32,538 bases of DNA from an uncultured Spirochaeta sp. (lineage in GTDB: Bacteria > Spirochaetota > Spirochaetia > DTKZ01): assembly GCA_937140905.1 (NCBI GenBank), contig CAKZQO010000212.1:1-32538 (forward strand). Reading direction: 5' to 3'. The notes under the pieces were generated by a model. That model searched no databases. It was given only the letters and a program-made list of their open reading frames with translations, and had not been told where the DNA came from. The position numbers were made by a program, and so were the translations under genes. Below, in pieces: positions 665-32,538 of this stretch (the first letter of the stretch is position 1; every line of letters starts with the position of its first letter).

Positions 665-1869
665 TGAAAGTACCTTCGTGCATCTTCTAACGCATCTACC
701 AATCGATCAAGGTCTTCTTTACTATTGCAGATCCCTAGGCTAGCCCGAACTGCGCTAGTGGCCCCCAATCGGTGAAGCAAGGGTTGGGCGCAGTGGTGGC
801 CTGAGCGAACTGCGATGGAGCGGGAATCGAGGAATTGGGCTAGATCATGGGAATGCACTCCCTCTAAATTAAAGGTAAATACGGGAGCCCTTATAGCGGC
901 TTCCCCATAGAGGGTGAGGTGTTCAATGTCAGAAAGTACTTCGGCACCGTACCTAGCCAATTTTTGTTCTTCCTCCCATATCTTCTCTCGGTCTAGGGAA
1001 TCGAGAAAATCGATAGCCGCAGCCAATCCTACAGCCCCTTCCACATTGGGAGTACCGGCTTCAAAGCGGTAGGGAGGCTCGTTGAAGGTAATGTCCGTCT
1101 CAGAGACTGTTGCGATCATTTCACCTCCCCCCTGGTAGGGAACGAGGCTGTCCAGAATCTGTTCCCGAACCCATAGTACACCTATTCCCATAGGACCGTA
1201 CATCTTATGACTCGAAAAGGCCGCCATGTCGCACCCCAGCTCGGATACATCGAAGGGCATGTGTCCCACGCTCTGGGCAGCGTCCAGTACCAGAAAAGCC
1301 CCTCGTTCGTGCACGAAGGAAGCAACAGAGGGGATCGGATTCACCGTTCCTAGCACATTGGAGACATGGGGAAGGGTTACCACCCGTACTTGCTCGGACC
1401 AGAGGGTTTCGAGATCCTGTATGTCCAGCTCTCCCGTTTGTGTGATGGGCCAGAATCGTAGGTGTAGTCCTTGTTCTCGAGCGGCGAGCCAGAAGGGAAC
1501 AATGTTAGAGTGATGGTCCATCTGGGTTACGATGATCACGTCTCCCGGATGGAGGAAAGTTCGAGTAAGGGAATGTGCGATTAGATTCAAGGCTTCCGTG
1601 GTGCCTCGGGTAAAGACGATTTCTTTCGACGAAGAGGCTCCGATGAACCGGGCCACCCGATTCCGGGCTCCCTCATACGCATAGGTAGAGGCTTCGGCTA
1701 ATCGGTACACGGCTCGATGAACGTTAGCATTTCGAGTCTGGTAATACTCAGAGATGGCCCGAATTACTGGCTCGGGTTTCTGGGTTGTGGAGGCGTTGTC
1801 CAGGTACACGAGGTTCGGGTTCGCCTCCAGTAGGGGAAACCTACCAGTTTTCAATGTAAACATACACAT
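661..1869 (-). CDS. sufS: SufS-type cysteine desulfurase (PLP-dependent)
   Basis: YLDNASTTQKP, MDHHSNIVPF, SSHKMYGPMGIGVLW (PLP Lys) and RSGHHCAQP (catalytic Cys loop). Confidence 0.95.
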   Translation of the reverse strand: MCMFTLKTGRFPLLEANPNLVYLDNASTTQKPEPVIRAISEYYQTRNANVHRAVYRLAEASTYAYEGARNRVARFIGASSSKEIVFTRGTTEALNLIAHSLTRTFLHPGDVIIVTQMDHHSNIVPFWLAAREQGLHLRFWPITQTGELDIQDLETLWSEQVRVVTLPHVSNVLGTVNPIPSVASFVHERGAFLVLDAAQSVGHMPFDVSELGCDMAAFSSHKMYGPMGIGVLWVREQILDSLVPYQGGGEMIATVSETDITFNEPPYRFEAGTPNVEGAVGLAAAIDFLDSLDREKIWEEEQKLARYGAEVLSDIEHLTLYGEAAIRAPVFTFNLEGVHSHDLAQFLDSRSIAVRSGHHCAQPLLHRLGATSAVRASLGICNSKEDLDRLVDALEDARRYFQ

Positions 1870-2152
1870 CGTCTCCTTCGATCCTTACAGGAATCGTCTC
1901 CACGGGAAGCACGGCGGGAAGGCCAGAAACCGCCCCAGTACGAATATCGAAGCTAGAGCCATGCTTGGGGCAGTAGACCTTTTCGTCCCAAACTTCCCCT
2001 TCGGACAACCGGGCGTACTCATGGGAGCAGGTGTCCCGTAAGGCAAAGATTCCATCAGATAGCCGGAAAAGCACGATCTCCTGTGACCCATATTCCACTC
2101 GAAGGGCTCTCTTTACCTCTACTAGCCGGGCAACCGGCACCCACTCTTTCAT
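1841..2152 (-). CDS. Rieske-type [2Fe-2S] ferredoxin embedded in the SUF operon
   Basis: Rieske ligand pattern CSH-X16-CPKH (DTCSHEYARLSEGEVWDEKVYCPKHGSSFD). Overlaps the start of sufS and the end of sufD. Confidence 0.88.
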   Translation of the reverse strand: MKEWVPVARLVEVKRALRVEYGSQEIVLFRLSDGIFALRDTCSHEYARLSEGEVWDEKVYCPKHGSSFDIRTGAVSGLPAVLPVETIPVRIEGDDVYVYIENW

Positions 2153-3363
2153 ACTAGGGATTCTGCGATTCGGTTGAGTACGTCTTCTTGGTAGACGCGG
2201 GGAATACTCGAAATCACCTCTTCGAAGAATCCCTCGATTAGAATCCGACGAGCTTCCTGGAAAGGGATACCTCGACTACGAAGGTAGAAGAGCTGCATTT
2301 CATTCAGCTTACCGGTAGTGGACCCATGGGTGCACCGCACATCGTCATTCCCAATGACTAGACGGGGGATGGAATCGGCTCGGGCTCCGGAACCAAGGAG
2401 TAAGTTCCGATTGGCCAGGTAGGCATCCGTTTTAGTGGCCCCTTCGCCAACCACGATCAAGCCCTGAAAGACCGATTTTCCCCCAGAAGCGACGACTCCT
2501 TTGTAAAGGGAATTGCTCTGCGCATGTTTCGATTGATGGGACTGGATAAGTTCCATATCGATGTGAGTGCTTTGCGTAGCCACATAGGCACCCTTCAGAT
2601 CCCCTTTTGCGCCTTCTTCCTCTAATTCCACTTTCCAGTTTGATTTGGATACCTGCCCTCCCACATGGACTTCCACAGATCCTAGGGAAGCATCCCGCTT
2701 TAGGTACCCTTCGAAAGAAAGGAAGAACCCCCCTTCTGAAGGAAGCAACCGGTCCACCACCAGGGTTCCCTGACCGTTTTCCTCGGCCTGGTAGGTAATT
2801 CCTCCATTGAAGAAGATACCGGGAGCTTTTCGCGCATCGAACCGTACCACTACCTGGGCTTCCGAATCCTTTCCTAAGAGAATCAGGAGGTGGGGTAGGG
2901 ATATAGTTTCCTCTTCTTCCAGTTGTATAAGGAGGGGTGCGGATATCCGCTGGTGATCGGGCACCTTAAGGATTAACCCATGGGTCGGATAGGCTAGGTT
3001 CCATCCCTGCATTCGATCTGGTAACCGCTGGATACGTTTTTCTATCACCCGGGTGGCAGCTTTAGGGAAGTCGGAAAACCAGTCGTACAGTTCGATTGTT
3101 TGGGTCTCCTCTGATCGATAGCATACCCAGGAATTCGAAGCACGATGGACCTCTAACGCCCATCCTTCTCGAGGTTTCCCACTTTCCAGGACAGGCGATG
3201 TCTTGAGAAATTCCTCCCGGTTAAAATGAGGAGTTGAAAACTGCCGGAACCTCTGTTCTGGCTGGAACTTTTCCAGAGGTGTTCGTCGCCACGATTCCCA
3301 GGATCTTTCCGGCCAGGGAAGCTTATCGAAGACTTCCCGCGCTTCTATCCGTACTCTCTCCAT
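2149..3363 (-). CDS. sufD: Fe-S cluster assembly protein SufD
   Basis: SufBD-family C-terminal core ([45 protein letters not shown]). Located between sufB and the Rieske/sufS genes. Confidence 0.92.
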   Translation of the reverse strand: MERVRIEAREVFDKLPWPERSWESWRRTPLEKFQPEQRFRQFSTPHFNREEFLKTSPVLESGKPREGWALEVHRASNSWVCYRSEETQTIELYDWFSDFPKAATRVIEKRIQRLPDRMQGWNLAYPTHGLILKVPDHQRISAPLLIQLEEEETISLPHLLILLGKDSEAQVVVRFDARKAPGIFFNGGITYQAEENGQGTLVVDRLLPSEGGFFLSFEGYLKRDASLGSVEVHVGGQVSKSNWKVELEEEGAKGDLKGAYVATQSTHIDMELIQSHQSKHAQSNSLYKGVVASGGKSVFQGLIVVGEGATKTDAYLANRNLLLGSGARADSIPRLVIGNDDVRCTHGSTTGKLNEMQLFYLRSRGIPFQEARRILIEGFFEEVISSIPRVYQEDVLNRIAESLV

Positions 3364-3380
3364 TTCCCTCTTCCTTTCCT

Positions 3381-4781
3381 CTAACCTACAGAGCCTTCCA
3401 TTTCTAGTTCGATCAATCGATTTAGTTCCACCGCGTATTCGAGGGGCAACTGTTTCACCAGAGGATCGAGGAAACCATTGACGATCATGAGGGAGGCTTC
3501 CGATTCCGATAGGCCTCTACTCCGAAGGTAGAACAGTTGCTCTTCGCTGATCCGGCTCACCCGGGCCTCATGTTCCATCGATACATCTTCGGATTCGATT
3601 TCTATGTAGGGATACGTGTTGGTTTTCGATTGGGGATCGAGAAGAAGGGCGTCACAAACCACGTGGGATTTGATTCCTGTGAGATTAGGGTACACCTTGA
3701 TCAATCCCCGGTAACTGGCAATTCCTCCATCCTTACTGATGGACTTGGAAGTGATGATCGAACTGGTGTCTGAAGCGGTATGGACGATCTTTCCCCCCGT
3801 ATCCTGCTCCTGCCCCTTGCCCGCAAAGGCAATGGAAAGCACTTCTCCATGCGCTTTGGGCCCCATGAGATATACGGCTGGGTACTTCATCGTTCGCTTA
3901 CTACCGATATTCCCATCCACCCATTCCACTGCCGCTTCCTCGTAGGCTACGGCGCGCTTGGTAACCAGGTTATACACGTTGTTGGACCAATTCTGGATGG
4001 TCGTGTACCGAACCCGGGCTCCTTTCAGGGCAAGGATTTCCACCACCGCACTATGGAGGCTGTTCCGACTGTAGATGGGGGCCGTGCACCCTTCGATGTA
4101 ATGAACGAAACTTCCCTCATCCGCAATGATCAATGTCCGTTCAAACTGTCCGAAGCTTTCCAGGTTGATCCTGAAATAGGCCTGTAGGGGAATTTCTACC
4201 CGTACCCCCGGAGGAACATAGATGAAACTTCCCCCTGACCAGACCGCTGTATTGAGAGACGCGAACTTGTTGTCGTTGAAAGGGATCACGGTTCCAAAGT
4301 ACTTACGGACCAATTCTGGATAATCCCGCACGGCGTCTTCTGGAGCGCAAAAGATCACTCCTTTTTGTTCCAAGTCAGCCCGAATGTTGTGATACACGAT
4401 TTCCGAATCGTACTGGGCTCCCACGCCCGCTAGGAACTTCCGTTCCGCTTCGGGAATCCCTATCCGATCATAGGTCGCCCGGATTTCTTCGGGAAGCTCT
4501 TCCCACCGTTCTTTGCGGTCCTCGGTAGGTTTGGCGTAGTAGTATATTTCATCGAAGTGGATGTCGGACAGGTCGGCTCCCCAGTTGGGCATGGGTTTCC
4601 GCCGAAAGGCTTCCAAGCCCCTCAACCGGTACTGGAGCATCCATTCCGGTTCGTTCTTCATTTGGCTGATGGTTCGAACGATCTCTTCGTCCAGACCTTT
4701 TCGGGTTTTGAACACGGAGCGATCCGGAAAGGCAAACCCATACTTGTATTCCCCAATATCCACTGTGACAGTTTCACTCAT
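3381..4781 (-). CDS. sufB: Fe-S cluster assembly protein SufB
   Basis: Conserved SufB segments ([83 protein letters not shown]). Confidence 0.96.
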
Positions 4782-5527
4782 ACCCGCACCTCTTCCCGTA
4801 TCCAGTCGTACCCACGAGCCTCCAATTCTCTCACTAGTTCGGCTCCTCCCGACAGGACGATCCGGCCATCCATCATGATATGAACCTTGTCCGGCTGGAT
4901 GTAATCCAAGATCCGCTGGTAGTGGGTGATAATTAGGGATGAAAAACGATCTCCCCGTAAACGGTTCACTCCCTGTGCCACGACTCGGAGAGCATCAATA
5001 TCAAGGCCAGAGTCTGTTTCGTCCAGGATGGCTAGTTTGGGACGAAACAAGAGCATCTGTAGGATTTCCATCCGTTTCTTTTCCCCGCCCGAAAACCCCT
5101 CGTTGAGGTACCGGTTTATGAAGGATCGATCCATTCCCATCGTGTCCATCAGGGCGCGAAGTTCTTCGATGAACTTATTTACGTTGAGGGAACCCTCTGC
5201 ACCCCGAAGATTTTCTACCGATCGTTTTAGGAATTTCCCTACCGTAACTCCGGGTACCTCTACGGGGTACTGAAAGGCAAGGAACATTCCCAGAGCAGCT
5301 CTTTTCTCGGGATCTTCTTCCAGAATATCCTTTCCTTCGAAAAGGACTCTTCCGGCCGTTACCGTGTAGGAAGGATGACCCATCAGGACATTGGCCAAGG
5401 TGCTCTTTCCCGACCCGTTGGGTCCCATGAGAGCGTGGATTTCTCCCGACTGGATACTGAGATTCACTCCCTTTAAGATGTCTTTCGTTTCGATCCGAGC
5501 ATGCAGGTTTTCTATCTGTAATAACAT
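4778..5527 (-). CDS. sufC: Fe-S cluster assembly ATPase SufC
   Basis: ABC ATPase with Walker [10 protein letters not shown], signature [13 protein letters not shown] and Walker [17 protein letters not shown]. Confidence 0.96.
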
Positions 5528-5537
5528 ATTCTCTCTC

Positions 5538-5867
5538 CTATATAGGGTAACCTAACTCCAATCGGGCAGCCTCGCTCATGAAGCTGTACCTCCATGGTGG
5601 ATCCCACACTAGATGGGGACTTACCTCTGTCACTCCGGGTAAAGTTTGAACTATTTCAATAATGTTATCGTAGATATCCTGTGCAGCCGGGCAGCCTGGG
5701 TACGTCACAGTGAAGTCCACATCCACCCTTCCTCCGGGTTGCACTGCTACATGATAAACCAAACCTAGATCCACTATGTTGATGGCTAGTTCAGGGTCCT
5801 CTACCCGCTTTAAAATTTCGTACACCTGGGAAACAAGGGGCGGTTGGTTAGAAACTTCCATTCCCAT
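5538..5867 (-). CDS. SufT-like / MIP18 (DUF59) family metal-sulfur cluster assembly factor
   Basis: VYEILKRVEDPELAINIVDLGLVYHVAV...VTYPGCPAAQDIYDNIIEIVQTLPGVTEVSPHLVWDPPW is the DUF59 core. The track start at 5915 is a TTG overlapping a -35-like element, so ATG at 5867 is preferred. Confidence 0.85.
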   Translation of the reverse strand: MGMEVSNQPPLVSQVYEILKRVEDPELAINIVDLGLVYHVAVQPGGRVDVDFTVTYPGCPAAQDIYDNIIEIVQTLPGVTEVSPHLVWDPPWRYSFMSEAARLELGYPI

Positions 5868-5888
5868 TCTCCTATTCGATAGGAAAAA

Positions 5889-5915
5889 GTTATATAATAT
5901 TACAAAAATAGTCAA
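5889..5915 (-). promoter_or_regulatory. Putative sigma70-like promoter of the leftward SUF operon
   Basis: On the minus strand, TTGACT (5915-5910), 15-bp AT-rich spacer, TATAAC (5894-5889), upstream of the first SUF gene. The spacer is short, so this is tentative. Confidence 0.4.
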
Positions 5916-5956
5916 GTTAAGTTTCCTTTGCGGGAATGTTTCGCTATGTTTACGGT

Positions 5957-6520
5957 ATGAGGATTCTGATGATCACAGCCCATCCGAATTCCCATGGGTT
6001 CAATCATTCCCTTTCCAACCGATTGCAGAACCGTTTGATAGAAGAAGGGGTGGAAGTAGATCGGACGGATCTGTATCAGGAAGGGTTCGATCCGGTCCTT
6101 TCGGTAGAGGAGATGTTCCGAAAAGCTTCTTTCGATGAAAGGGTTCTTCGGCAGGTTGAGAAACTGAAAACTAGTTCAGGTCTATTACTGGTGCACCCGG
6201 ACTGGTGGGGGTTACCTCCGGCCATCCTGAAAGGATGGGTAGATCGGGTGCTTCTTCCCGGTGTGGGGTATACCTACGAGGAAGGACCAGTACCTTTGCC
6301 CCTTTTCGGGCACCTAAAGGGAGCCGTGCTGGTGACTCGAGACAATCGAGGTTCAGGCCTTTCGGAGATGTTCTGGTTACAGGAAGTGTTTCCTACCTGC
6401 GGCATAGCTCCTGCCTGCTTTCGAGTGTTGGATGGGCTAAAAACTATGGAATCCTATGAGGTGGAAAAAAGAGTGGCCGTTTTGATTGAAGAATTGTATA
6501 CTTTTCTAGTAAGAAAATAG
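5957..6520 (+). CDS. NAD(P)H:quinone oxidoreductase / flavodoxin-fold protein (MdaB/KefF-like)
   Basis: MRILMITAHPNSHGFNHSLSNRL...DLYQEGFDPVLS...VHPDWWGLPPAILKGWVDRVLLPGVGYTYEEG. Start chosen at ATG 5957 rather than track start 5936. Confidence 0.85.
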   Translation: MRILMITAHPNSHGFNHSLSNRLQNRLIEEGVEVDRTDLYQEGFDPVLSVEEMFRKASFDERVLRQVEKLKTSSGLLLVHPDWWGLPPAILKGWVDRVLLPGVGYTYEEGPVPLPLFGHLKGAVLVTRDNRGSGLSEMFWLQEVFPTCGIAPACFRVLDGLKTMESYEVEKRVAVLIEELYTFLVRK

Positions 6521-6601
6521 AGGGAGGTGGGTTTTATCGTCGGTGTGGCCTAGGTCAGAATGAGTAAGCGCTGGAAGAACGATAAACCGCTTTCGGACAA
6601 G

Positions 6602-7870
6602 TTACATCTGGAAACCCACATTCACGAAGCCGTACACTTGCCGGGTAGAAACGCTATACGTAACGTCGAACCCGAAGGCGGGTATGGCAACCTTGGAAAG
6701 GTAGATTCGAAACCCTGCCCCCGGGCCATGAGCTAGGTAGTATGGATTCTCTGGAGTAGGGGATTCGTCTCGGAACACCCCACTCTCATAGTATAGAACG
6801 AAGGTGGGGGCCCCCCACCGGAAATGGATAGGGATTCCTTCAAAAATTAGTTGACCCATGAGGATGGTGTTGGAGAATACATCATCCCCAATAGTCTTGA
6901 GGAATCGTCCAGACACTCGGTTCTCCAGGATAGGCGGAACTCCAAGACCCTTGAATCCCTGAACTCGCAACCCCATCCGATGCTCGCCCCAAATGGGAAG
7001 GTATCCCTGGGCCTGGAGGGTAAAGCTGTCGTAAAAGTCTGTTCCTTGAAGGTCGAAGGCTCGTTCATATCGAAGAGAGGATAAAATCCCATAGACCAAC
7101 ACGGGACCAAAGAAAAGATCCTGGTACCGAAAAGTGAAGGCAGGTCCAGCGAACCGAACGTTATCCGGGGGATTCAAACGGGAATCATAGTCATCCTCTA
7201 GTTGATGTTCCCGAAATTGAACTCCCACTCCGATCCCAAAGCCTTTTCCCAAAGGAAACGTGAGATCTCCCCCGGCGTCCAGTTTGGTTTTCTCGAAGCG
7301 TCGCAGGAGGGAACCTTCGACGGTTCTGGAAGCGACAATCTCCGTACCTATGCCAAACCGCAGTATGAGAGACTGGGATGTGCCGAGGAAACGAGGATCG
7401 ATGTAACCGAACATTCCCTGTAACCCATTGTTTCCCCAGAAAGCACCTCCGTAGAACTTCTTGTTCCAACCGAACAGGTTGGACTCGAAGAGTAGGAGCC
7501 CTCCATACAGGTTCCCCCCACTGGTTGCTCCCCCAAGGGGAATAGGGATAAGAGTCCATTTCTCCTCTAGCTGTACCCGCAAGCGTATTTGGCCTGACCC
7601 ATCCGGCTGGGGAAGGAAGGTGATCCGGTGAAAGAGACCAAGACTCCGGAGGGATTGAAGCATGGCTTCTTCGGTTGCGGGCGTGTAGGGTTTCCCCACA
7701 AAGGGATCCAAGAAGGGCGTTACTACCTCAGGATGAGTTCTTTTTAGACCTTCCAGCGTATAGGAGGAGATACGTGCGGAATCGCTACCAGCTGCCGAAT
7801 CTGAATAGATTCGGAAGGATAACAAAACATTTAACGCGATGAAACTAATGAGTATGGTTCGAAATCGCAT
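6602..7870 (-). CDS. Omp85/BamA-like outer-membrane surface antigen (POTRA + beta-barrel)
   Basis: Signal-peptide-like start MRFRTILISFIALNVLLSFRIYS, a POTRA-like segment (LRSLGLFHRITFLPQ...IRLRVQLEEKWTLIPIP) and a glycine/aromatic-rich barrel to the C-terminus. Confidence 0.7.
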   Translation of the reverse strand: MRFRTILISFIALNVLLSFRIYSDSAAGSDSARISSYTLEGLKRTHPEVVTPFLDPFVGKPYTPATEEAMLQSLRSLGLFHRITFLPQPDGSGQIRLRVQLEEKWTLIPIPLGGATSGGNLYGGLLLFESNLFGWNKKFYGGAFWGNNGLQGMFGYIDPRFLGTSQSLILRFGIGTEIVASRTVEGSLLRRFEKTKLDAGGDLTFPLGKGFGIGVGVQFREHQLEDDYDSRLNPPDNVRFAGPAFTFRYQDLFFGPVLVYGILSSLRYERAFDLQGTDFYDSFTLQAQGYLPIWGEHRMGLRVQGFKGLGVPPILENRVSGRFLKTIGDDVFSNTILMGQLIFEGIPIHFRWGAPTFVLYYESGVFRDESPTPENPYYLAHGPGAGFRIYLSKVAIPAFGFDVTYSVSTRQVYGFVNVGFQM

Positions 7871-7955
7871 GGTAGTAATAAATATACCTAGGTTTTTCCT
7901 ATTCTTGCAGGAGAATCTAAGTTTCTGATACACTTCGGGGTGAAAGGGGTACAAC

Positions 7956-9167
7956 TTGGCAGAAAAAATCCAGATGACTGATAAGGGACTTCAAGTCCCG
8001 GATAATCCGATCATCCCCTTCATCGAGGGAGATGGAACAGGCCCGGATATTTGGGCGGCAGCGGTTCGAGTGTTCGATGCTGCGGTGGAGAAAGCGTATG
8101 GCGGAAAGCGGCAGATTGCTTGGAAAGAGGTACTGGCGGGAGAAAAGGCGTTCAACCTCCTGGGCACCTGGTTACCCGAAGAAACAGAGCAGGTGTTCAA
8201 GGACTATCTGGTTGGGATAAAAGGTCCCCTCACAACCCCTGTTGGGGAGGGTTTTCGGAGTCTCAACGTAACCTTACGCCAACGGTTGGACCTGTACGTT
8301 TGCCTTCGTCCCGTGAAGTACTATCCAGGGATTCCTTCCCCCGTAAAGCAACCAGAACTAGTGGACATGGTGGTGTTTCGGGAGAATACGGAGGATGTGT
8401 ACGCGGGGTTAGAAGCTCCCGCAGGTTCTCCTAAGGCATCCAAACTGATAGAGTTCTGCAGAACTGAGCTGGGCTGGGAGATCCGGCCGGATAGCGGGAT
8501 TGGTATCAAACCCATTAGCCGATTCGGCACCGAACGTCTCGTGCGTTCTGCCATCCGGTATGCCCTACAGCAAGGCCGAAGGAGCGTTACCCTGGTCCAC
8601 AAGGGGAACATCATGAAGTATACGGAAGGGGCCTTTCGTAATTGGGGGTATGAGTTGGCCAAACGGGAGTTCGGGGATCGGGTTCTTACGCACGAAGAAT
8701 TGGGAAGTCAGCCCGTACCCAAAGGGAAGATCCTTATCAAGGACGTCATTGCCGATGCCTTCCTCCAACAGATCCTTACCCGGCCAGCCGAGTACGATGT
8801 GATCGCCACGATGAACTTGAACGGCGATTATATCTCCGATGCCCTGGCCGCTCAGGTAGGAGGAATCGGAATCGCGCCGGGAGCGAATATCAACTACGAT
8901 TCGGGACATGCCATCTTCGAAGCTACTCATGGGACCGCTCCCAAGTACGCGGGTAAGGATGTAGTGAATCCTAGTTCGGTCATTCTTTCGGGAGTCATGA
9001 TGTTTCAATACCTCGGTTGGCAGGAGGCGGCAGATTTGATCGAAAAAGGATTGCAGGAGGTCATTCGTCGAAAGATCGTTACCTACGACTTTGCCCGACT
9101 GATGGAAGGCGCCATCCAGGTGTCTACCAGCGCCTTTGGAACAGCTATCATCGAGCATATGGAATAG
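7956..9167 (+). CDS. icd: NADP-dependent isocitrate dehydrogenase
   Basis: [52 protein letters not shown]. Predicted TTG start. Confidence 0.95.
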
Positions 9168-9172
9168 CGGGG

Positions 9173-9724
9173 ATGGTTGGTAAACGGATACCCAGGAAAA
9201 ATCTGGTATTGGGAGCTCTTTTCGTCGTGTTGGGCGGGACTCTCTTACTCTGGACTTCAGGGAAGCTTTCCGGGGTTCTTTCCTTCTGGCCGGTTCTCCT
9301 GGTGATACTGGGACTGTATCTCCTATACCGGGTCTATATTTTAGGGGGTTCCGAGAGCCTAGTATTCTATGGCATTTTCTCCGCCCAGGCAGGGGCTTTT
9401 CTCCTCCTCCTCAACGCGGAAATCATGGGGAACCTATATTTCCGGAACCTTTGGCCATTCTTCATGCTCTTTGCGGGCGTGGCTCTCCTTCTCTATGGGC
9501 TAAAGAGGAAGGGAGCCTACCGTGTGCGATACCTGATTCCCTCTGTTTCCATCATCTCGCTCTCCGGGATATTCCTGTTGTTCAGCCTAGGTTTCATTCG
9601 GGTCAGTCTTAAAACAATCCTTGTCCAGTTCTGGCCCCTCATTCTTGTGCTCTGTGGAGTGTTTCTCATCCTGTTCGATTTCTTTCGTAACAAGATCCAT
9701 TCGAGAAAAGCGGAGGATCATTAA
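9173..9724 (+). CDS. Multi-pass membrane protein, LiaF-TM/DUF5668-like
   Basis: MVGKRIPRKNLVLGALFVVLGGTLLLWTSGKLSGVLSFWPVLLVILGLYLLYR..., several hydrophobic helices with repeated FWPxxLV motifs. Start moved to ATG 9173 so it follows icd. Confidence 0.65.
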   Translation: MVGKRIPRKNLVLGALFVVLGGTLLLWTSGKLSGVLSFWPVLLVILGLYLLYRVYILGGSESLVFYGIFSAQAGAFLLLLNAEIMGNLYFRNLWPFFMLFAGVALLLYGLKRKGAYRVRYLIPSVSIISLSGIFLLFSLGFIRVSLKTILVQFWPLILVLCGVFLILFDFFRNKIHSRKAEDH

Positions 9725-10110
9725 CTTAAGGACTCTTCCTCGCAGCGGGAACAGAGGTTGGAATCCAACATAACAATCTGATTCAAGGAAAGAGGAGATC
9801 CGCACTTTCTGCATCTTCTGTGAAAAGGAAAGGTCTTTTCCCGGTACAGATACAGGACTCCCAAGATTACTCCCAAGAAAGGTAGAATGAATAAGTCGGG
9901 AAGGGTGATGCGAAAGAGGCGGGGGGAATACTTTATTGCCCCCGCCCCAAGGTAAAGGATCAATGTGCCAATCCCGAGGTAGAGGGTAGCGGTGCGTTTT
10001 TGTACTCCTTTGTTTCCGGATCGTTTCTGCGCAATGTTGAGAAGTAAGATGCCCATGAAAAGGAAATAGGCAAGTTTAGCGATACTTTCGGAGATGGGGT
10101 ACACGTACAC
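9721..10110 (-). CDS. Small membrane protein with C-terminal zinc ribbon
   Basis: Three hydrophobic segments followed by CRKCGSPLSLNQIVMLDSNLCSRCEEESLS (CX2C...CX2C). Confidence 0.6.
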   Translation of the reverse strand: MYVYPISESIAKLAYFLFMGILLLNIAQKRSGNKGVQKRTATLYLGIGTLILYLGAGAIKYSPRLFRITLPDLFILPFLGVILGVLYLYREKTFPFHRRCRKCGSPLSLNQIVMLDSNLCSRCEEESLS

Positions 10111-10179: not shown

Positions 10180-11991
10180 TTATCCATAGAGGGGGCCATA
10201 GGTGGCGCAAGCTCGATAGTCCGAACCTTCAGGATCCATCCCAAACGCGTTCCACGCGCTAGGTCGATAGATCGCCTCCTCTGGAACATTATGGAGACAA
10301 ACGGGGATCCGAAGCATGGACGCGAGGGTAATTAGATCAGCGCCGATGTGACCGTAACTGATGGCCCCATGGTTAGCACCCCAGTTAGCCATCACCGTAT
10401 ACACATCCTTGAACTTCCCCTTTCCTGTGAGTCTAGGGGCAAACCAGGTAGTGGGCCAGGTGGGATCTGTCCGTTTGTCCAGGATATCATGCACGGGATC
10501 TTCCAAGTCCACTGTCCAGCCTTCTGCGATCTGCAACACCGGTCCCAACCCCTTCACGAGGTTAATTCGGGACATGGTTACGGGCATTCCGCCCTCGGTC
10601 TTGAAATCCGTGGAGAAACCACCACCCCGGAAGTAGTCCAGGTTCGCAGGGGGGAAGAGGGTAGCATCGAGACAGGCAGCCACCTCCTCAGGGGTGATTT
10701 CCCAATAGGGCTTTAAAGCGGGTTTACCGTCCTTCCGTTGTTTTCCGGTTCCATCCAAGCAGGTAGAACCCGAGTTGATCAAATGGATCAAGCCCTGTTC
10801 GGCGATGCCGGTTAGGGTCTTGCCCGTGACCCGTTTCACCGCCTCTGGACTCCAAAAAGTACGTACATCGGAAAAGATCTGAGCGGTACCGGTAAGGAGA
10901 TGTCCAAAGAGCATGGCCACACCATTTAGACTGTCGTTTTCCGTAGCAAAGATAAAGGGCTGTCGTATCCCATTCCAATCGAACGAGGAGTTCAACATCG
11001 TTTCCGTAAAGTCGCCGTTGGGGAAATGATCGGTCCATTGTCGTTGCCCCTGGAACCCGGCAGCCAGGGCATTGTGGCCCAAGGCTTCCTCCCCCCAACC
11101 AAGTTCCCGTAACCGGGGATTCCCGATCATGAGGTCTCGCGCAATGAGGGTCATTTTCACCACGAACTCCCAATCCTTATCCAGCTGGGATCGGGAATGA
11201 CGCTTTTCGGGTTTGTTCAGATCTGGCCCTTCTTTGCAGTTCTTCCTTGTCCACTCGAGAGCTCTCTGGTATTCCTCTGGATCGTAGATTCCCCGCTCGA
11301 TTCTACGGATGAACTCACTCATGTCCACGTACTCGTTCCGCATTCCCAGGTAGCTCTGGAAAAAATCTTCCTGCACGATGGAACCCGCGATTCCCATGGA
11401 AACCGAGCCCATGCTGAGGTAAGATTTTCCCCGCATGTAGGCAACCGCTAACCCCGCGCGGGCGAAGCGAAGGAGTTTTTCTTCCACGTCCGGAGGAATT
11501 GAAGTATCCCCCGCATCCTGCACATTTCTTCCGTAGATACCGAAAGCGGGAAGCCCCTTCTGGTTGTGAGCCGCCAGTACCGCTGCCAGGTACACGGCTC
11601 CCGGACGTTCTGTTCCATTGAAGCCCCATACCGCTTTGGGAATGAGAGGATCCATATCCATCGTTTCCGAACCATAACACCAACAGGGTGTGACGGTGAG
11701 GGATACTCCTACGCCTTCGCGGGCGAACTTGTCTGCACAGGCGGCAGCTTCCGCTACTCCCCCGATTGTGGTATCGGCAATCACGCACTCCACGGGCAAG
11801 CCATTGGGATGCCGGAGCCTGCTACTAAGAAGCTTGGCCGCCGCTCGGGCCATCTCCATCGTTTGGTTCTCGAGCGATTCCCGTATACCCCCCAATCGTC
11901 CATCGATGGCAGGACGAATTCCAATCTTGGGAAGGGTCCCCTTTAGTCGTTCTTTCGGAGGGGATATTTTTAGGTTCTTTACCTCTGCCAT
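10180..11991 (-). CDS. fucI: L-fucose isomerase
   Basis: [80 protein letters not shown]. Start taken at MAEVKNLK. Confidence 0.94.
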
Positions 11992-24121: not shown

Positions 24122-24141
24122 CAAAAGCACCTTCTATAGTT

Positions 24142-24215
24142 CGGGCTGTAGCGCAGTTGGTTAGCGTACCAGACTGGGGGTCTGGGGGTCGGCGGTTCAA
24201 GTCCGCCCAGCCCGA
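24142..24215 (+). tRNA. tRNA-Pro (anticodon GGG)
   Basis: Acceptor CGGGCTG/CAGCCCG, D-arm GCGC/GCGT, anticodon stem CCAGA/TCTGG with loop CTGGGGG, T-arm GGCGG-TTCAAGT-CCGCC, discriminator A. Confidence 0.95.
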
Positions 24216-24221
24216 AAAGGG

Positions 24222-24345: not shown

Positions 24346-25458
24346 TTGTTAAAAAAACCCTATTCCTTATGGAAGCGTAGGCTCCGATCCGGTCGGTCCG
24401 TGTACTACATTCGGTTCCGCTTGGAGGATGGAAGTTGGAGCGTGGCCAAGAGCACCGGGCAAACCACGAAAACCGCCGCCGAAGCTTGGGCCATCGAGTA
24501 CCTGAAATCCGGAAAGATCGTGCTGAAAGAACGGGTCACGTTTGAAAGTTTCGCCCGGGACTTTTTCGCTCCCGAGGGACCCTTCCTGCGTAGCCGTCTC
24601 CTCCGGGGGCGAGGGGTAGGGAAGAACCACCTGGAGAACTTACAAGCTTACATTCGAAACTACCTCCTACCCTATTTCGGAAGCCAGTCCCTCCGCCGGA
24701 TCACCTCCCTACAGGTGGAAGAGTTCACCCAGGAGCTTTTGGGCATGAACCTTTCCACCAGCACGGTGAACCACATCCTCACCACCCTCAAGATCATCCT
24801 CCGGGAAGCCTTCCGGAAGCAGTACATCCAGCAGCTGCCGGTGATCGACAGGGTGGCCCAGAGGCACCGGATCCGGGGCGTGCTGAGTGTGGAGGAGGCA
24901 CGGGCCTTTTTTAACGAGCCCTGGGAAGACCCCCGGCTGGAAGCCATCCATCTCCTCGCGGCAACCACGGGGATGCGGTTGGGGGAGATCCGGGGGTTGC
25001 AACGAAAATCGGTCCATCCCGGGTACCTGGAAGTGCGGACCTCTTGGGAAAAGGGGCAGGGGTTAAAGGGAACGAAAACGGGACGGCCCCGGATCGTTCC
25101 CCTCCCCGAACGTACGGAACAGGCCCTACGGAGGGTGATGGAGATCAGTCCCTACCAGGACCCGGAGGACTTGGTGTTCTTTGGTCGGTTCCGGCATAGC
25201 CCTCTGGACCATAAGATGATCGAGAAAAGCCTATGGGAACGACTTTCGGCAATCGGGATTAGCGCTGAGGAGCGCATCCAGAGAGGACTCTGCTTTCACT
25301 CCTGGAGACATTTCTTTAACTCCCTCTTAATCAATCACCGGATCCCCATTCCCAAGGTGCAACGGATCGTGGGACACACGACGGATCGGATGACGGAAGT
25401 CTACTATCACCCGGACGAGTACCGGGATGTATTGAATGTAGCAAGGAGGATACTATGA
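24346..25458 (+). CDS. Tyrosine recombinase / phage-type integrase
   Basis: Catalytic motifs TGMRLGEIRGL, HSWRHFFNSLL, VGHTTDRMTEVYYH. N-terminal SAM-like core-binding region. TTG start per track. Confidence 0.95.
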   Translation: MLKKPYSLWKRRLRSGRSVYYIRFRLEDGSWSVAKSTGQTTKTAAEAWAIEYLKSGKIVLKERVTFESFARDFFAPEGPFLRSRLLRGRGVGKNHLENLQAYIRNYLLPYFGSQSLRRITSLQVEEFTQELLGMNLSTSTVNHILTTLKIILREAFRKQYIQQLPVIDRVAQRHRIRGVLSVEEARAFFNEPWEDPRLEAIHLLAATTGMRLGEIRGLQRKSVHPGYLEVRTSWEKGQGLKGTKTGRPRIVPLPERTEQALRRVMEISPYQDPEDLVFFGRFRHSPLDHKMIEKSLWERLSAIGISAEERIQRGLCFHSWRHFFNSLLINHRIPIPKVQRIVGHTTDRMTEVYYHPDEYRDVLNVARRIL

Positions 25459-26527: not shown

Positions 26528-26707
26528 ATGCCTAAATACCTGACGGTGGACGAAGCGGCAGAGCTACTTCGACTGAAAAAACAGACTCTCTACAAGTGGA
26601 TCTGCCAACGGAAAATCGGTTCCATTTCGCTGGGAGGTAGAACGTTATTCCAGCAGGAGGAGTTGGAGAAATGGGTGGAACAGCGGAAACGGAAGCCTAT
26701 TATCTGA
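26528..26707 (+). CDS. AlpA/excisionase-like (MerR-type HTH_17) DNA-binding protein, 59 aa
   Basis: GAGGAGG ribosome binding site; MPKYLTVDEAAELLRLKKQTLYKWICQRKIGSISLGGRTLFQQEELEKWVEQRKRKPII*. Absent from the ORF track, probably because of length. Confidence 0.85.
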   Translation: MPKYLTVDEAAELLRLKKQTLYKWICQRKIGSISLGGRTLFQQEELEKWVEQRKRKPII

Positions 26708-27378
26708 AAAATCTTTCTCCCATTCCCGAAGGGGAGGAGGAAGGCTTGGCATTCACACGAGAATATCTTGTTCCTGTTATAGGTGAGAGAGAGTACTCCT
26801 TTCGGGAATCGCTTCTCCATCTCCCCGATATAGAGCCTCCCCCTAAGCGTCGGGGAAGACCCTCAACCTATCGGTTTGAAACCGGAATACGCTTCTGCTG
26901 CGAGTGGTTCGGCACGTGTTCCTACCAGGAAGCCTGTAGAAGGGTGCGGGTTACGGGATCCACAGTCTGGAGATGGAGGAAGAAGTATCCGGGCTTTCGC
27001 CTACGGGTATGGTTCACGAAAGAGGTCATCCGGGTACGAAGGCGATTGAACCCTTTCTATGCGCCCTGTACGGGGCGAGCTTTTTCGCAATCCAGAAAAC
27101 GTACCTTTCTTGCACCGTACGATACCCCCCTCCGGGGACGCCCTTCTCGATATCCGGAAGTCGGTGGGAAGGAAGTCGGGATCACTTGGTCAGACACCGC
27201 GAGAAAGCTTGGCGTCTGTCGAAGAACCATCGGGTACTGGTCGAGGAGGCACCCCGAGTTTCACTACAAACTTGTCCTCGCGATGGTACAGAATAGGCTC
27301 CCCCGAATCCAAGAAAAGGTAACGCGCCTGATGGATCGATACTACCTTGCAATAAAGAATCATTTGAAGGAGGAGTAG
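26671..27378 (+). CDS. DNA-binding protein with two similar GRPS-HTH units
   Basis: GRPSTY...YQEACRRVRVTGSTVWRWRKKYPGF and GRPSRY...WSDTARKLGVCRRTIGYWSRRHPEF. Overlaps the previous ORF by 37 nt. Confidence 0.65.
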   Translation: MGGTAETEAYYLKNLSPIPEGEEEGLAFTREYLVPVIGEREYSFRESLLHLPDIEPPPKRRGRPSTYRFETGIRFCCEWFGTCSYQEACRRVRVTGSTVWRWRKKYPGFRLRVWFTKEVIRVRRRLNPFYAPCTGRAFSQSRKRTFLAPYDTPLRGRPSRYPEVGGKEVGITWSDTARKLGVCRRTIGYWSRRHPEFHYKLVLAMVQNRLPRIQEKVTRLMDRYYLAIKNHLKEE

Positions 27379-27379
27379 G

Positions 27380-29590
27380 ATGGGGACTAACAACCCGTTG
27401 GAACAGGAAGCCCTTCAATACGTCAAAGACGTTCTTCGGTTACCCGTTGGGCAGGAGAATGTGACCATTCGAAGCCCCCTGCGTTCGGATGACCATAACC
27501 CATCGTTTTCCATTAACACCGAAAATGGGCTCTGGATGGATCATGGAACAGGGGAAAAGGGTAACGCTCGGATTTTGGCAGAGCGGCTAGGCTGGAAAGG
27601 AGAGAGGATGAAGAAGATGGAACTAAAGGAATTGGGAGAAAGGATCTATCCGTATACAGACGCAGAGGGAACCGTGGTGTTTGAGGTGCATCGCGTGGAT
27701 ACGGTGGGTTCGGGGAAAAGGATCTGGGTTAGCGGACCCGAGGGGGTAAAGGACTTTAAACTTCCCGAACCGCGCCCCCTATATAACCTGCCCAAGCTTG
27801 TCCAGTCCTCTGGGCCCGTTCTTGTGGTGGAGGGTGAAAAGTGCGCGGAGGTAGACGTCCCTGGCTACGTGGTAACTACCTGGTCCGGTGGCGCTCGGGC
27901 AGTAAACCAGTCTGACTGGTCAATTCTACGGGACCGGGAAGTGGTGGTATGGCCGGACGCGGATGAACCGGGATTGGAAGCGGCGAGAAGGATTCGTTCC
28001 CTTCTGCCCCAGGCGAAGATCCTCCGCGTGGAGGGAAAACCGCTAGGGTGGGACCTCTATGACTGCGTTACGGAAGGAGGGGATCCTCTCCAGTTCATGC
28101 AATCCTGCGGGTTAGTATCGGAGGATTCGGGCCTGATTCCCCCGAGTCGCGTGGGACAAATAGAGGAGAACAAGAAGGAAGATAGGGGAAAGGGGAGGCG
28201 GATTGAGTTTGCAGATCCTTCTCCCTTAGAGGAGGCGATCGATGGAGAAACAGTTCTAGATGATATCGTACGGTTAGCGCGTAAGTACCTCGTACTTCCC
28301 GATGGAGGGGCTGAACTCATCGCGCTGTGGAGCCTATACACCTGGTGTCACGATAGCTTCTACGTGTCCCCCTACCTGGCGTTCGCGGCTCCGCAGAAAG
28401 GAAGCGGAAAAACTACCGCTCTTTCCTTTGTATCCCGTTTGGTACATAAGGCGGTGGCCGCTTCCAGCATTACTCCCGCCGCTCTTTATCGACTGATCGA
28501 AGAGGCGCGACCAACCCTCCTGATTGATGAGGCGGAAACCTTTATTCGAAAAGAGAATCCGGAACTTAAAGGGATCCTGAATAGTGGCTTTTGTAAATCT
28601 TCGGCGTATGTGATTCGCGCGATTGACAAAGACGGAACCTGGGAACCTCGATCTTTCAGCACCTGGTGCCCGAAGTGTTTTGCCTTTAACGGGCGTCTAC
28701 CAGATACCCTGATGGACCGGAGCCTGGTAATTTTCATGCAAAGGAAATTACGGCATGAAAAAGTGGAGAGACTGTTGGAAGGAAGGGCAGAAGAGGAGTT
28801 CCAAGATGTAAAGGTTCAACTATCTAGTTGGGCGCATCAACATGGAGAGGAACTATCTACCATGGATCCGGATATACCCGACGAATTAAACAATCGGGAA
28901 GCGGACAAGTGGGCGCCTCTCCTAGCTATCGCGGAGGCTGTGGGAGGGCACTGGCCTGATACAGCCCGAAGGTTACCCTTTAAGATAGGCAGAGAAGAGG
29001 ATGACGATCTTAAGATCCTCCTTCTCCGGGACATTCAAAGGATTTTTCAGAATTACGGTTACAGCCGCCTTCATTCTAAAGACCTTGCATCTCGACTCCG
29101 GGAACTACCCGATTCTCCCTGGGAAGAGATGGGGTCCCGAGGATTGACCCCTGTGAGTCTAGCGGGGATGCTCAAGCCCTTCCGGATCAAAGCCTGCCAG
29201 TTAAAAATAGAGGGGAAAAACCAGAACGGCTACACTTGGGAGATGTTTAAACCTGTTCTTGAACGTTACCTACCGAGAGAACTCTACTCCTCTACCTCAC
29301 AGAATAACCATCTTCTGGTGAAAGAGATAGAAGGTAGAATGAGTTCCGAGGGTAGAGTTACCGAGCTTCCCGAGTGGCAAACCATGGATCCGTTGAGGAG
29401 TGATCGAATTGAACTCTACCCAAACTCTACCTTCGAAGATACGGGTAATTATTGTTTCAATAAAGAATTATCCAGCCATGGTAGAGAAGTAGAGGGTGAA
29501 CTTGGAAAAGACAGTGCCGATGCTTCATGGGTAGTCAGCACGGCAGGAGGGAAGGGTACAGAAAAGGAGGAACCCGGAATCATTATATGA
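27380..29590 (+). CDS. Replicative primase/ATPase of the mobile element (TOPRIM + DUF3631-like)
   Basis: N-terminal primase-like domain (RSPLRSDDHNPSFSINTENGLWMDHGTGEKGNA); TOPRIM-like GPVLVVEGEKCAEVD...VVVWPDADEPGLEAA; Walker A APQKGSGKTTAL; LLIDEAETF. Confidence 0.85.
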   Translation: MGTNNPLEQEALQYVKDVLRLPVGQENVTIRSPLRSDDHNPSFSINTENGLWMDHGTGEKGNARILAERLGWKGERMKKMELKELGERIYPYTDAEGTVVFEVHRVDTVGSGKRIWVSGPEGVKDFKLPEPRPLYNLPKLVQSSGPVLVVEGEKCAEVDVPGYVVTTWSGGARAVNQSDWSILRDREVVVWPDADEPGLEAARRIRSLLPQAKILRVEGKPLGWDLYDCVTEGGDPLQFMQSCGLVSEDSGLIPPSRVGQIEENKKEDRGKGRRIEFADPSPLEEAIDGETVLDDIVRLARKYLVLPDGGAELIALWSLYTWCHDSFYVSPYLAFAAPQKGSGKTTALSFVSRLVHKAVAASSITPAALYRLIEEARPTLLIDEAETFIRKENPELKGILNSGFCKSSAYVIRAIDKDGTWEPRSFSTWCPKCFAFNGRLPDTLMDRSLVIFMQRKLRHEKVERLLEGRAEEEFQDVKVQLSSWAHQHGEELSTMDPDIPDELNNREADKWAPLLAIAEAVGGHWPDTARRLPFKIGREEDDDLKILLLRDIQRIFQNYGYSRLHSKDLASRLRELPDSPWEEMGSRGLTPVSLAGMLKPFRIKACQLKIEGKNQNGYTWEMFKPVLERYLPRELYSSTSQNNHLLVKEIEGRMSSEGRVTELPEWQTMDPLRSDRIELYPNSTFEDTGNYCFNKELSSHGREVEGELGKDSADASWVVSTAGGKGTEKEEPGIII
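29281..29495. repeat. Cluster of ACTCTACC/GGTAGAGT repeats (iteron-like)
   Basis: Perfect copies at 29351-29358 (inverted), 29413-29420 and 29424-29431; one-mismatch copies at 29281-29288, 29289-29296, 29333-29340 (inverted) and 29480-29487 (inverted); a two-mismatch copy at 29488-29495. Confidence 0.65.
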
Positions 29591-30057: not shown

Positions 30058-32538
30058 ATGCTTGCACAAACAATCCAACGTCAAATACCCATAGGTAGCG
30101 CAGTAATCTTTACTCTCAAAGACAGTCGCGAGGTTAGTGGAGTCCTAATAGAAATAGGACGCGACCATGTAACTATAGATAGTGTGGGAGAATCGGTCAC
30201 TATTTTGACCGAAATGATAGGAGCATGGCGTATTTTAAAAGGTGGTGAATCATTGCAACAGGAAACTAATGTGCTAAAACCGATACCTACTCCTGTATCA
30301 CCCTCAGAACCCTCTGATCAAGAAACCATAAAGAAGCTGTTAGAGATCGAGGCACGATTTCAAGCCCAGCAACAGGTTTCTTTTTTACAAGTAAAGGTGC
30401 CAGACTTTTGTTTCCCGGTTGATGAAATCAAGGGCAAGCTAGGTACTAACGCCCAGACAGCCTGGCATCGCATCAAGGAAAAATATCAGTATGCGGCGAA
30501 AGTCAATGAACTTAGTGTAAAGTTTGGCAGGATACAACCGTTGGTACAAGAACTTGCTTATCTTGCAGAGCACTTTCCGCACTCCGCTTCAATAAAGCGA
30601 CATTTAGCCTATCTTTATCATTTATTAGGAAACCATAAAGAGTCATTAAATTTATACAAGGTTGCTGCCATTAGCTCCAATGATGCTTGGGACTGGTATA
30701 ACCTGGCAACAAAGGCGTTGGCAAGTGAGCAAGATGCTTTAGCTTGTTATGCTCTTGGGCGGTTTTTCCAGATAATTCCTAACACAGAAGCATTGAGCGC
30801 CTGGTATGTCTACATTGGCTTGGTCAGAAAATTCTCCGATTACCAAACTATTAAGGATATTGCCCAGAAACGATCTGCCAGCGCTTCAGAGAAAGAAATC
30901 GAGATTTTACTGGAAACAAGTATTTACCTGTTTCTTGTCAAAGGAGGCAGAACTTTTGCTGCAGGTGTTGCCCAACGTTGGATAAAAGGAGAAGCGCTTC
31001 AAAGCTTGGTATCGAATGCGTTTGCACGTCTTGAAGGACAGCCAGATGAGACATATCAAAAGTCGGTTTCAGAGTTCGTTGATAAAATAGCGCCCAAACA
31101 GATAAAAACGACCTTGGACACTCCACAAGGATTTATTTACTCTTACAGGTCAGATCGTAGTTTCGGCTTTCTCAGAGACAATGCCGGCGAAACTTACTTC
31201 TTCCATATTACAGCGGTATCCGATGATGACTTGCTTGAACAACTTCGCGATTTCTCGCCTGGCAAACGGATACCTGTGACCTTTGAGCCAAGCCAGGGGC
31301 CCAAGGGCCCTGTTGCGATTAGGGTTACACTTCATCGAACACTTGACGAGATGTTTACAAGAGCTACTGAGTATGCTAGCGAAGGTGATTACCCTAAAGC
31401 AATCGCCCTTGTAAAAAAGGTTTTGGAGCTCAATCCCAATTATCCCTCAGCACAAGAGGCTTATGACAAGTGGCGCGAATATGCTAGAGTGAGCGGTGTA
31501 CCTAGAGGGTCAAATCCCTATGCGCGGGCTAAACGTGTGCAGTTAGTCGAGAAAGACCTTGAACGAGCTATTCAGTTGCTTCGCGATGCTATCAGGCAAG
31601 GGGATAACGTTGAAAGTGCTGTCAAAGACCTGGCCGCGTTGCTGGTTCAACTAGGGCGGTCGGATGAAGCCATTCAGGTTTTGGAAAAAAACCGCGGGCG
31701 AATTTCTAATCAGCAATCTGTAGATAATATGTTGATAGGTTTCTATCAGAACGCTGGTCAGCATGATAAGGCTATCTCATTGCTGGAAAAGAAATTCAAA
31801 CAGGCGACCACTGAGAGCAGGAAAGCACAAATCTTATGGATGATTGCGATTGGATACCTTAGAAAAGAAGATTATGCTCTGGCTGAACAGACTTTTCGAA
31901 AGGTACTACAAGCCCAGCCCGACAATAGAACGGCACAAAGAAATATTGCGCTTTGTCTATTCAAACAAGGGCGTTATGAGGAAGCCCAGAAAATACTGAA
32001 CCACATTGTAATGAGTGCACCTGATGCACAGGCTGCAGAACTGCTCGATGTTATACAAAAGGCGCAGGTTACAGGCCAGCTTGCTTCCCTTGATGCAATA
32101 GTAAGAGAAACGATAATTACAGAGTTCGTTGCCGAACGTAGTAAATTTACAGATTTTATGCTTGCAAGATGTGATTACAAGGGGGTTTCACCCGATCGAC
32201 TTAGGGTTAATGAGGAGGGACAGCAGGTTTACATAGGTACTAGAAGAGACGCACGACATGATATAGAGCGTCTTGAAGATATAGCAAGGCAACTAGGTAC
32301 TAGAAGACCATCGGAGCGATCTGACTATTATTTGACAGCAGCAAGCATTTCTGAGAGCGACGATCCTAATCAATTTTATCAATACCTTTGCCGAAGCTTC
32401 GCATCCAAAGGGGACTCTTTTGTGATTGAACATAAACCGCTTGATGCTGCTAGAGACCTTTACTGTGAAGCGTTGGCTGTTTATGATGGTTACAGAAATC
32501 CTGGGAAGAGTGATGATAGATATGATGAGCAAGATGCA
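30058..32538 (+). CDS. Large protein (827 codons visible, 3'-truncated): LSm/Sm-like domain, TPR-like repeats, cold-shock domain, further TPRs
   Basis: AAAGG ribosome binding site, then ATG at 30058, open to the window end. LSm-like IPIGSAVIFTLKDSREVSGVLIEIGRDHVTIDSVGESVTILTEMIGAWRIL; CSD-like GFIYSYRSDRSFGFLRDNAGETYFFHITAV; TPRs such as YALAEQTFRKVLQAQPDNRTAQRNIALCLFKQGRYEEAQKILNHIV. Confidence 0.8.
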   Translation, partial: MLAQTIQRQIPIGSAVIFTLKDSREVSGVLIEIGRDHVTIDSVGESVTILTEMIGAWRILKGGESLQQETNVLKPIPTPVSPSEPSDQETIKKLLEIEARFQAQQQVSFLQVKVPDFCFPVDEIKGKLGTNAQTAWHRIKEKYQYAAKVNELSVKFGRIQPLVQELAYLAEHFPHSASIKRHLAYLYHLLGNHKESLNLYKVAAISSNDAWDWYNLATKALASEQDALACYALGRFFQIIPNTEALSAWYVYIGLVRKFSDYQTIKDIAQKRSASASEKEIEILLETSIYLFLVKGGRTFAAGVAQRWIKGEALQSLVSNAFARLEGQPDETYQKSVSEFVDKIAPKQIKTTLDTPQGFIYSYRSDRSFGFLRDNAGETYFFHITAVSDDDLLEQLRDFSPGKRIPVTFEPSQGPKGPVAIRVTLHRTLDEMFTRATEYASEGDYPKAIALVKKVLELNPNYPSAQEAYDKWREYARVSGVPRGSNPYARAKRVQLVEKDLERAIQLLRDAIRQGDNVESAVKDLAALLVQLGRSDEAIQVLEKNRGRISNQQSVDNMLIGFYQNAGQHDKAISLLEKKFKQATTESRKAQILWMIAIGYLRKEDYALAEQTFRKVLQAQPDNRTAQRNIALCLFKQGRYEEAQKILNHIVMSAPDAQAAELLDVIQKAQVTGQLASLDAIVRETIITEFVAERSKFTDFMLARCDYKGVSPDRLRVNEEGQQVYIGTRRDARHDIERLEDIARQLGTRRPSERSDYYLTAASISESDDPNQFYQYLCRSFASKGDSFVIEHKPLDAARDLYCEALAVYDGYRNPGKSDDRYDEQDA
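32234..32307 (+). repeat. 14-bp exact direct repeat TAGGTACTAGAAGA, 60 bp apart, in frame
   Basis: Copies at 32234-32247 and 32294-32307, both encoding part of GTRR. Confidence 0.8.

Follow-up and report, generated by a model that had tools for sequence, protein, structure and literature searches.

The window analysed here comprises 32,538 nt of DNA from an uncultured Spirochaeta sp. and is the entire contig C212 of a genome assembled in 324 contigs. A tRNA-Pro gene is followed by genes for a tyrosine integrase, a helix-turn-helix (HTH) protein and a DUF3631 primase/helicase-like protein, and then by a large gene, hereafter gene A, which runs off the contig end (Table 1). Frame +1 was free of stop codons from ATG 30025 (838 codons) or ATG 30058 (827 codons) to the last base. 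Two relatives, L070 and L028, were ~50% identical to the window protein across all 838 aa without a stop, so the ORF is not a chance frame. An earlier sequence-only reading, which had described an 827-codon ORF running off the window, was thus correct. ATG 30058 is a better start than ATG 30025 because every close relative begins there (e.g., MLSKLIQRQVPIGS in L070) and an AGAAAGG stretch lies directly 5' of it.

Table 1. Features of the tRNA-Pro region and of gene A (window coordinates unless another contig is named)
Feature	Location	Strand	Basis or remark
tRNA-Pro	24141-24216		
3' 50 nt of tRNA-Pro	24166..24215	+	Repeated exactly on C21 (10259-10308), next to a second integrase; probable att core
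Tyrosine integrase	24346..25458	+	Phage_integrase, 1.2e-21
ORF with duplicated homeodomain-like HTH and basic linker	26671-27378		Between integrase and primase genes
DUF3631 primase/helicase-like gene	27380..29590	+	Pfam
Gene A, N-terminal part	30058..32538	+	827 codons of a ~1593-aa protein; remainder on contig C135
Sm/LSm-like small beta-barrel (moderate support)	30058..30237	+	AlphaFold; sub-threshold Hfq/LSm/SM-ATX profile matches
TPR-like helical solenoid 5' of cold-shock domain	30316..31089	+	AlphaFold, Foldseek
Cold-shock domain (GFIYSYRSDRSFGFLRD...TYFFHI)	31126..31332	+	Pfam, AlphaFold, Foldseek
TPR repeats 3' of cold-shock domain	31351..32094	+	Pfam
Start of conserved helical region leading to probable beta-sandwich and C-terminal ATPase	32095..32538	+	Relatives (L137)
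Gene A, C-terminal part	Locus L083 (C135), 6321-8591	-	Match to L070; contig ends inside gene

We searched the genome itself with L070 and found residues 842-1592 on contig C135 with 65% identity. The C135 end and the window end had 7 nt in common. The frame ran on as DEQDA/VNA across the two contigs, as in DEQDAVNA of L070, and the joined length (838 + 757 - 2 = 1593 aa) equalled that of L070; both halves matched this one intact protein, at 52% and 65%. Judging from these matches, the C-terminus missing from the window is on C135 of the same genome. Extension to the ORF end, which the earlier reading had proposed as a check, thus gave a full protein of ~1593 aa. The two contig halves were analysed separately, with intact relatives as full-length references.

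The structure of residues 1-447 of gene A was modelled with AlphaFold from seven aligned sequences (pLDDT 80.7). Residues 7-70 formed one helix and five strands, with a pLDDT of ~85. A 13-member N-terminal profile repeatedly matched Hfq/LSm chains, with E values of 0.03-1 only, and single family members matched Pfam Hfq (0.0012) and SM-ATX (0.0009), both below cut-off. An Sm-like barrel at the N-terminus of gene A therefore has moderate support: the LSm domain suggested from sequence alone agrees with the model, while its sequence matches stay below significance. The cold-shock domain (CSD) and TPRs named in the same reading are real. The isolated CSD segment matched Pfam CSD with 2.7e-7 (30.8 bits, cut-off 27), and the five-stranded barrel modelled at residues 368-436 matched the cold-shock proteins 2k5n and 1hzb in Foldseek. 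TPR_19 was matched in gene A with 9e-25, TPR-like helices were modelled at residues 98-355, and the middle part matched TPR proteins in Foldseek. In the N-half model, the Sm-like part thus has the helix and five-stranded barrel of Sm/LSm folds, and the CSD has a five-stranded OB fold with RNP motifs.

The full order in gene A is Sm-like domain, helices, CSD, TPR, further helices, a probable beta-sandwich and a STAND/AAA-type ATPase, and the intact relatives of ~1593 aa show the same order. Pfam matches of the C-half were AAA_16 (2e-7, just under the cut-off), nSTAND1 and ATPase_2, all below their cut-offs. The Walker motifs were intact in our gene A (GQKRAGKSS and LLIDEF), and a Walker A of the form GQKR[AS]GK[ST]S with a hydrophobic-DEF Walker B was kept in gene A of all 11 loci compared. 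The AlphaFold model of the C-half was poor (pLDDT 57.5), and we set aside its structure search, in which the best matches were beta-sandwich domains and Orc1/Cdc6 with weak E values. An effector domain had been suspected at the unseen C-terminus of gene A. The protein ends in the ATPase, and the likely effector is encoded by the next gene.

This gene, gene B, starts 7 nt past gene A on C135. Its product combines an ATPase, with the motifs GDCRIGKS and IIIILDEF, and a C-terminal Swt1-like HEPN domain, which matched HEPN_Swt1 (PF18731) with 37.8 bits against a cut-off of 27.5. The ATPase matches among AAA_16, ATPase_2 and nSTAND1, all below cut-off, came from both genes. RNPLAH at residues 466-471 fits the Rx4-6H motif, and RNPxxH was found in gene B of 9 of the 11 loci. 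In PADLOC, the HEPN part alone matched PDC-M34B (6.7e-12). Sequence searches of the PDB with gene B and with the gene A C-half gave no match. The HEPN domain is predicted to cut RNA and is the likely effector of the pair. In the Chloroflexota relative L110, and in this relative only, a C-terminal Ser/Thr kinase replaces HEPN in gene B (4996-7404; Pfam 2.2e-37), and gene B of L109 (10688-12604) has another C-terminal segment with RNDRTH in the HEPN position. The Walker motifs of gene B were intact in nine loci and altered only in L109 and L110.

Relatives were collected by scanning GTDB genomes with a DNA pattern for YxxDRxFGFxxD, which gave 71 matches, mostly by chance. Among them were the full-length proteins L070 (Ardenticatena MAG, 1593 aa) and L028 (Anaerolineae MAG, 1597 aa), the Bacteroidota proteins L024, L044 and L051, and the archaeal L055. 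Three viral-contig matches were rejected as chance. Peptide-pattern scans of the genome and viral collections, with the window protein or a two-sequence alignment, gave no match, the phage collection yielded no gene A copy, and further viral searches were negative as well. Every one of the 11 bacterial loci examined, which represent at least three phyla, had gene A next to gene B, with gaps of -68 to +15 nt. Their identity matrices were correlated with r = 0.84, a value reached in 0 of 5000 permutations that leave shared descent in. At L111, an IS256-like transposase, identified by eye from its sequence, interrupts gene A, and gene B is intact and keeps RNPLAH.

The distribution of the pair is very patchy. 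A C-half profile found six full-length members in 399 Chloroflexota genomes, one in 398 Bacteroidota genomes, and the window genome alone among 391 genomes of its own phylum; an N-half search of 395 own-phylum genomes likewise returned the window genome alone. The C-half in our genome was closest to that of Chloroflexota L107 (74%), and its identities place it within the Chloroflexota sequences, a pattern that speaks for horizontal transfer; the hosts are taken to belong to different phyla because the genome sets drawn for them were disjoint.

An archaeal-phylum search with the N-half revealed stand-alone LSm-TPR-CSD-TPR proteins of ~860-1080 aa (L138-L142; also L003). They are homologous to the N-half and keep its domain order. 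The C-terminal ATPase is absent from them and gene B was not found nearby, and the sensor half may therefore act on RNA in some other role. The neighbours of L142, one of these proteins, are two ATPase-like genes on the opposite strand and large unknown ORFs. Methanomethylovorans hollandica carries the N-half on a plasmid, in a region rich in defence genes, as two separate genes with a UvrD-PD-(D/E)XK gene after them.

Related ATPase domains also occurred in other proteins. On the Acinetobacter ursingii plasmid NZ_MH220285.1 (L087, 6253-10221), a 1323-aa protein annotated as N-6 DNA methylase has a C-terminal ATPase domain that shares 25% identity with its gene A counterpart, and another ATP-binding protein is encoded after it. 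We rejected it as a gene A homologue, only the ATPase domain being in common; a sensor swap, with a DNA methylase replacing the RNA-binding half, is possible. In Chloroflexota, L112 (4465-9318), L114 (5249-10267) and L115 (7658-12613) encode proteins of 1600-1670 aa whose ATPase domain is related, with beta-propeller repeats ahead of this domain in L112. They may be other sensor types joined to the same kind of ATPase switch.

The window places gene A behind an integrase at tRNA-Pro. In two genomes of the same genus (G001 and G002), synteny extends to tRNA-Pro and is followed by ordinary genes without an integrase. The exact repeat of the tRNA 3' end on C21 (L086) stands without a complete tRNA and is followed by a second, different integrase at 10407-11057. 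Left of this repeat, at 7905-10099, are PLD-type and nuclease-like genes. Possibly, two elements are integrated in tandem at tRNA-Pro. The C21 repeat could not be linked to the right end of the island, since the contig ends do not overlap and the second integrase follows the repeat. A right attachment site ahead of position 30058, which would have placed gene A outside the element, was not found between the integrase and gene A, where there were 11-12-nt matches only. The HTH ORF is possibly a regulator of the element. A tRNA-Phe called by ARAGORN at 6196-6268, inside ORF 5936-6520, is probably false, as Rfam did not confirm it. Genes A and B had a GC content of 40-44% (GC3 34-38%), compared with 51% (GC3 54-72%) for the integrase and primase genes and the chromosome; the pair therefore looks like a separate (later) acquisition. 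The integrase, the two genomes that lack it, the 50-nt repeat and the foreign base composition all support the proposal of mobile-element cargo.

The neighbourhoods of the pair, whose survey had also been suggested, contained defence genes and integration sites at several loci. At our own locus on C135, gene B is followed by an IS21 istB remnant (4186-4527). Beyond this remnant, on the strand opposite to the pair, are a PLD-SNF2 helicase gene (1161-3899; PADLOC PLD_Helicase, 3.8e-235) and a RecG/Fic-like gene. Locus L104 (Flavobacteriales) has the order type I R-M, CBASS cyclase and 2TM effector, RecD-like gene, A and B, and an AriA/mad3-like ATPase gene adjoins gene A at L109. The L024 pair lies in a Bacteroidota mobilizable element with an excisionase-type HTH and a Mob-type relaxase, as read from the neighbours. 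The L107 pair is directly downstream of a tmRNA gene (3760-4127); tmRNA is a common integration site. At several Chloroflexota loci, the flanking genes were ordinary and not defence genes. Gene A matched none of the system models of PADLOC 2023.

We compared the pair with published systems. The nearest kind (PMC8195603; eLife 2021, Fig. 6C) is a predicted counter-invader operon of two genes with two nSTAND2 NTPases and a variable GT4/HEPN effector, whose effector-bearing partner has eroded NTP-binding motifs. Both are mobile and consist of two adjacent genes with a STAND-type NTPase in each and a swappable effector, commonly HEPN, on one protein; in the A-B loci, the effector was HEPN in 9 of 11, the kinase in L110 and the other C-terminus in L109. 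However, PF20702 (nSTAND2) was not matched by our gene A or B at E ≤ 0.05 and was matched only by L111 gene B (0.0023). The effector-side ATPase of the A-B pair keeps its Walker motifs in 9 of 11 loci, a kinase appears as an alternative effector, and the LSm-TPR-CSD-TPR half has no mention in the searched text of PMC8195603. The A-B pair thus departs from that kind in its ATPase family (by Pfam), its effector-side Walker motifs and its RNA-binding half. A table in PMC3710099 lists Swt1-like HEPN with STAND-ATPase, TPR and S1 (Npun_F6454, MED222_16016 and Desac_1927), and the A-B pair likewise combines a Swt1-family HEPN, a STAND ATPase, TPR and an OB-fold RNA-binding domain. These entries may refer to A-B relatives; they occupy one line of the table, which specifies neither a sequence nor an Sm-like domain nor an operon, and the comparison is by description. 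CoCoNuT type IV restriction systems (PMC11090510) also have CSD-type OB folds, an NTPase and an HEPN RNase in a predicted RNA-targeting defence. However, their McrB-type GTPase and coiled coils were not found in the A-B pair, and identity with CoCoNuT was dropped because the GTPase is absent. The A-B pair thus looks like an undescribed variant of a still only predicted mobile two-gene immune kind.

Sequence features make it fairly probable, in our view, that the two genes form a mobile two-gene conflict system, triggered by RNA and gated by ATPases, with gene A as its sensor and switch and gene B as its effector. The LSm/CSD/TPR half of gene A would bind an RNA, or an RNA-protein state, born of infection, and binding would allow A and B to assemble in an ATP-dependent manner. 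HEPN RNases usually work as dimers. Once B clusters, its HEPN domains would meet and form an RNase active on RNA of the host and/or the invader, and cleavage would halt growth or phage production, ending in dormancy or death; in L110, the kinase would act in place of HEPN. The outcome of such a defence system would probably be abortive. The L111 locus, with gene A interrupted and gene B intact, speaks weakly for a gene A that activates gene B, as opposed to one that restrains it. The wider claim that the pair is an undescribed RNA-sensing innate immune system, with Sm-like and CSD folds on a TPR scaffold, paired STAND-type ATPases, a swappable effector and a stand-alone archaeal sensor, stands at about even chances. 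The defence neighbours, the ATPase plus HEPN and the effector swap strengthen the suggestion of an RNA-sensing defence candidate made from the window alone.

Alternatively, gene B could be an HEPN RNase toxin curbed by gene A, the pair serving to stabilise the island with no role against phage. HEPN toxins are common in toxin-antitoxin pairs (PMC3710099), and here the genes are tightly coupled and located in an island. However, an activating role of A explains the L111 locus more easily, an ATPase of 1593 aa would be unusual as an antitoxin, and a kinase replacing HEPN suits a defence effector better; such an addiction module is therefore unlikely. It is distinctly unlikely that the pair is a housekeeping regulator of RNA after transcription, or an RNA quality-control complex, that lies in a mobile region by chance. 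The stand-alone archaeal half (~1000 aa, in methanogen-type archaea, with ATPase and HEPN not nearby) and the ordinary neighbours at some Chloroflexota loci would fit such a role, whereas the extremely patchy distribution over three bacterial phyla, the replaced effector domains, the foreign composition and the defence genes and integration sites repeatedly close by argue against it.

A further reading, which we regard as very improbable, is a divergent TOTE system (TPR, OB, TBP, Effector) with its TBP-like part hidden in the helical or beta region. According to PMC12458937, which cites Aravind et al. 2022, a TPR-CSD fusion protein is a named component of the predicted TOTE/TALON defence, and TALON occurs mostly in Chloroflexota. 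The A-B pair is similar in its TPR and OB-fold (CSD) protein, its associated HEPN_Swt1 effector and its mostly Chloroflexota distribution, and the M. hollandica relative precedes a nuclease-helicase gene in a defence region. However, the constant partner is an ATPase-HEPN protein, a TBP or RNase H family was not found in gene A or B, and TBP, the YprA helicase and the NERD nuclease were not recognised alongside. Finally, a wrong join of unrelated contigs or a chance reading of motifs, for which the 7-nt overlap and the fragmented assembly might speak, is hardly credible given the continuous frame, the joined length and the match of both halves to L070.

If the preferred reading of a sensor and its effector is true, the pair would be a concrete two-gene system that can be cloned, its RNA-binding sensor acting as the switch for two ATPases and an RNase, and would offer a bacterial parallel to RNA-sensing innate immunity. 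A cultured isolate, Parabacteroides sp. PM6-13, has an A-B copy, and the question of the trigger is therefore directly testable. The pair would also link the predicted two-STAND operons to TOTE systems and their TPR-OB proteins and would illustrate effector replacement within one gene family.
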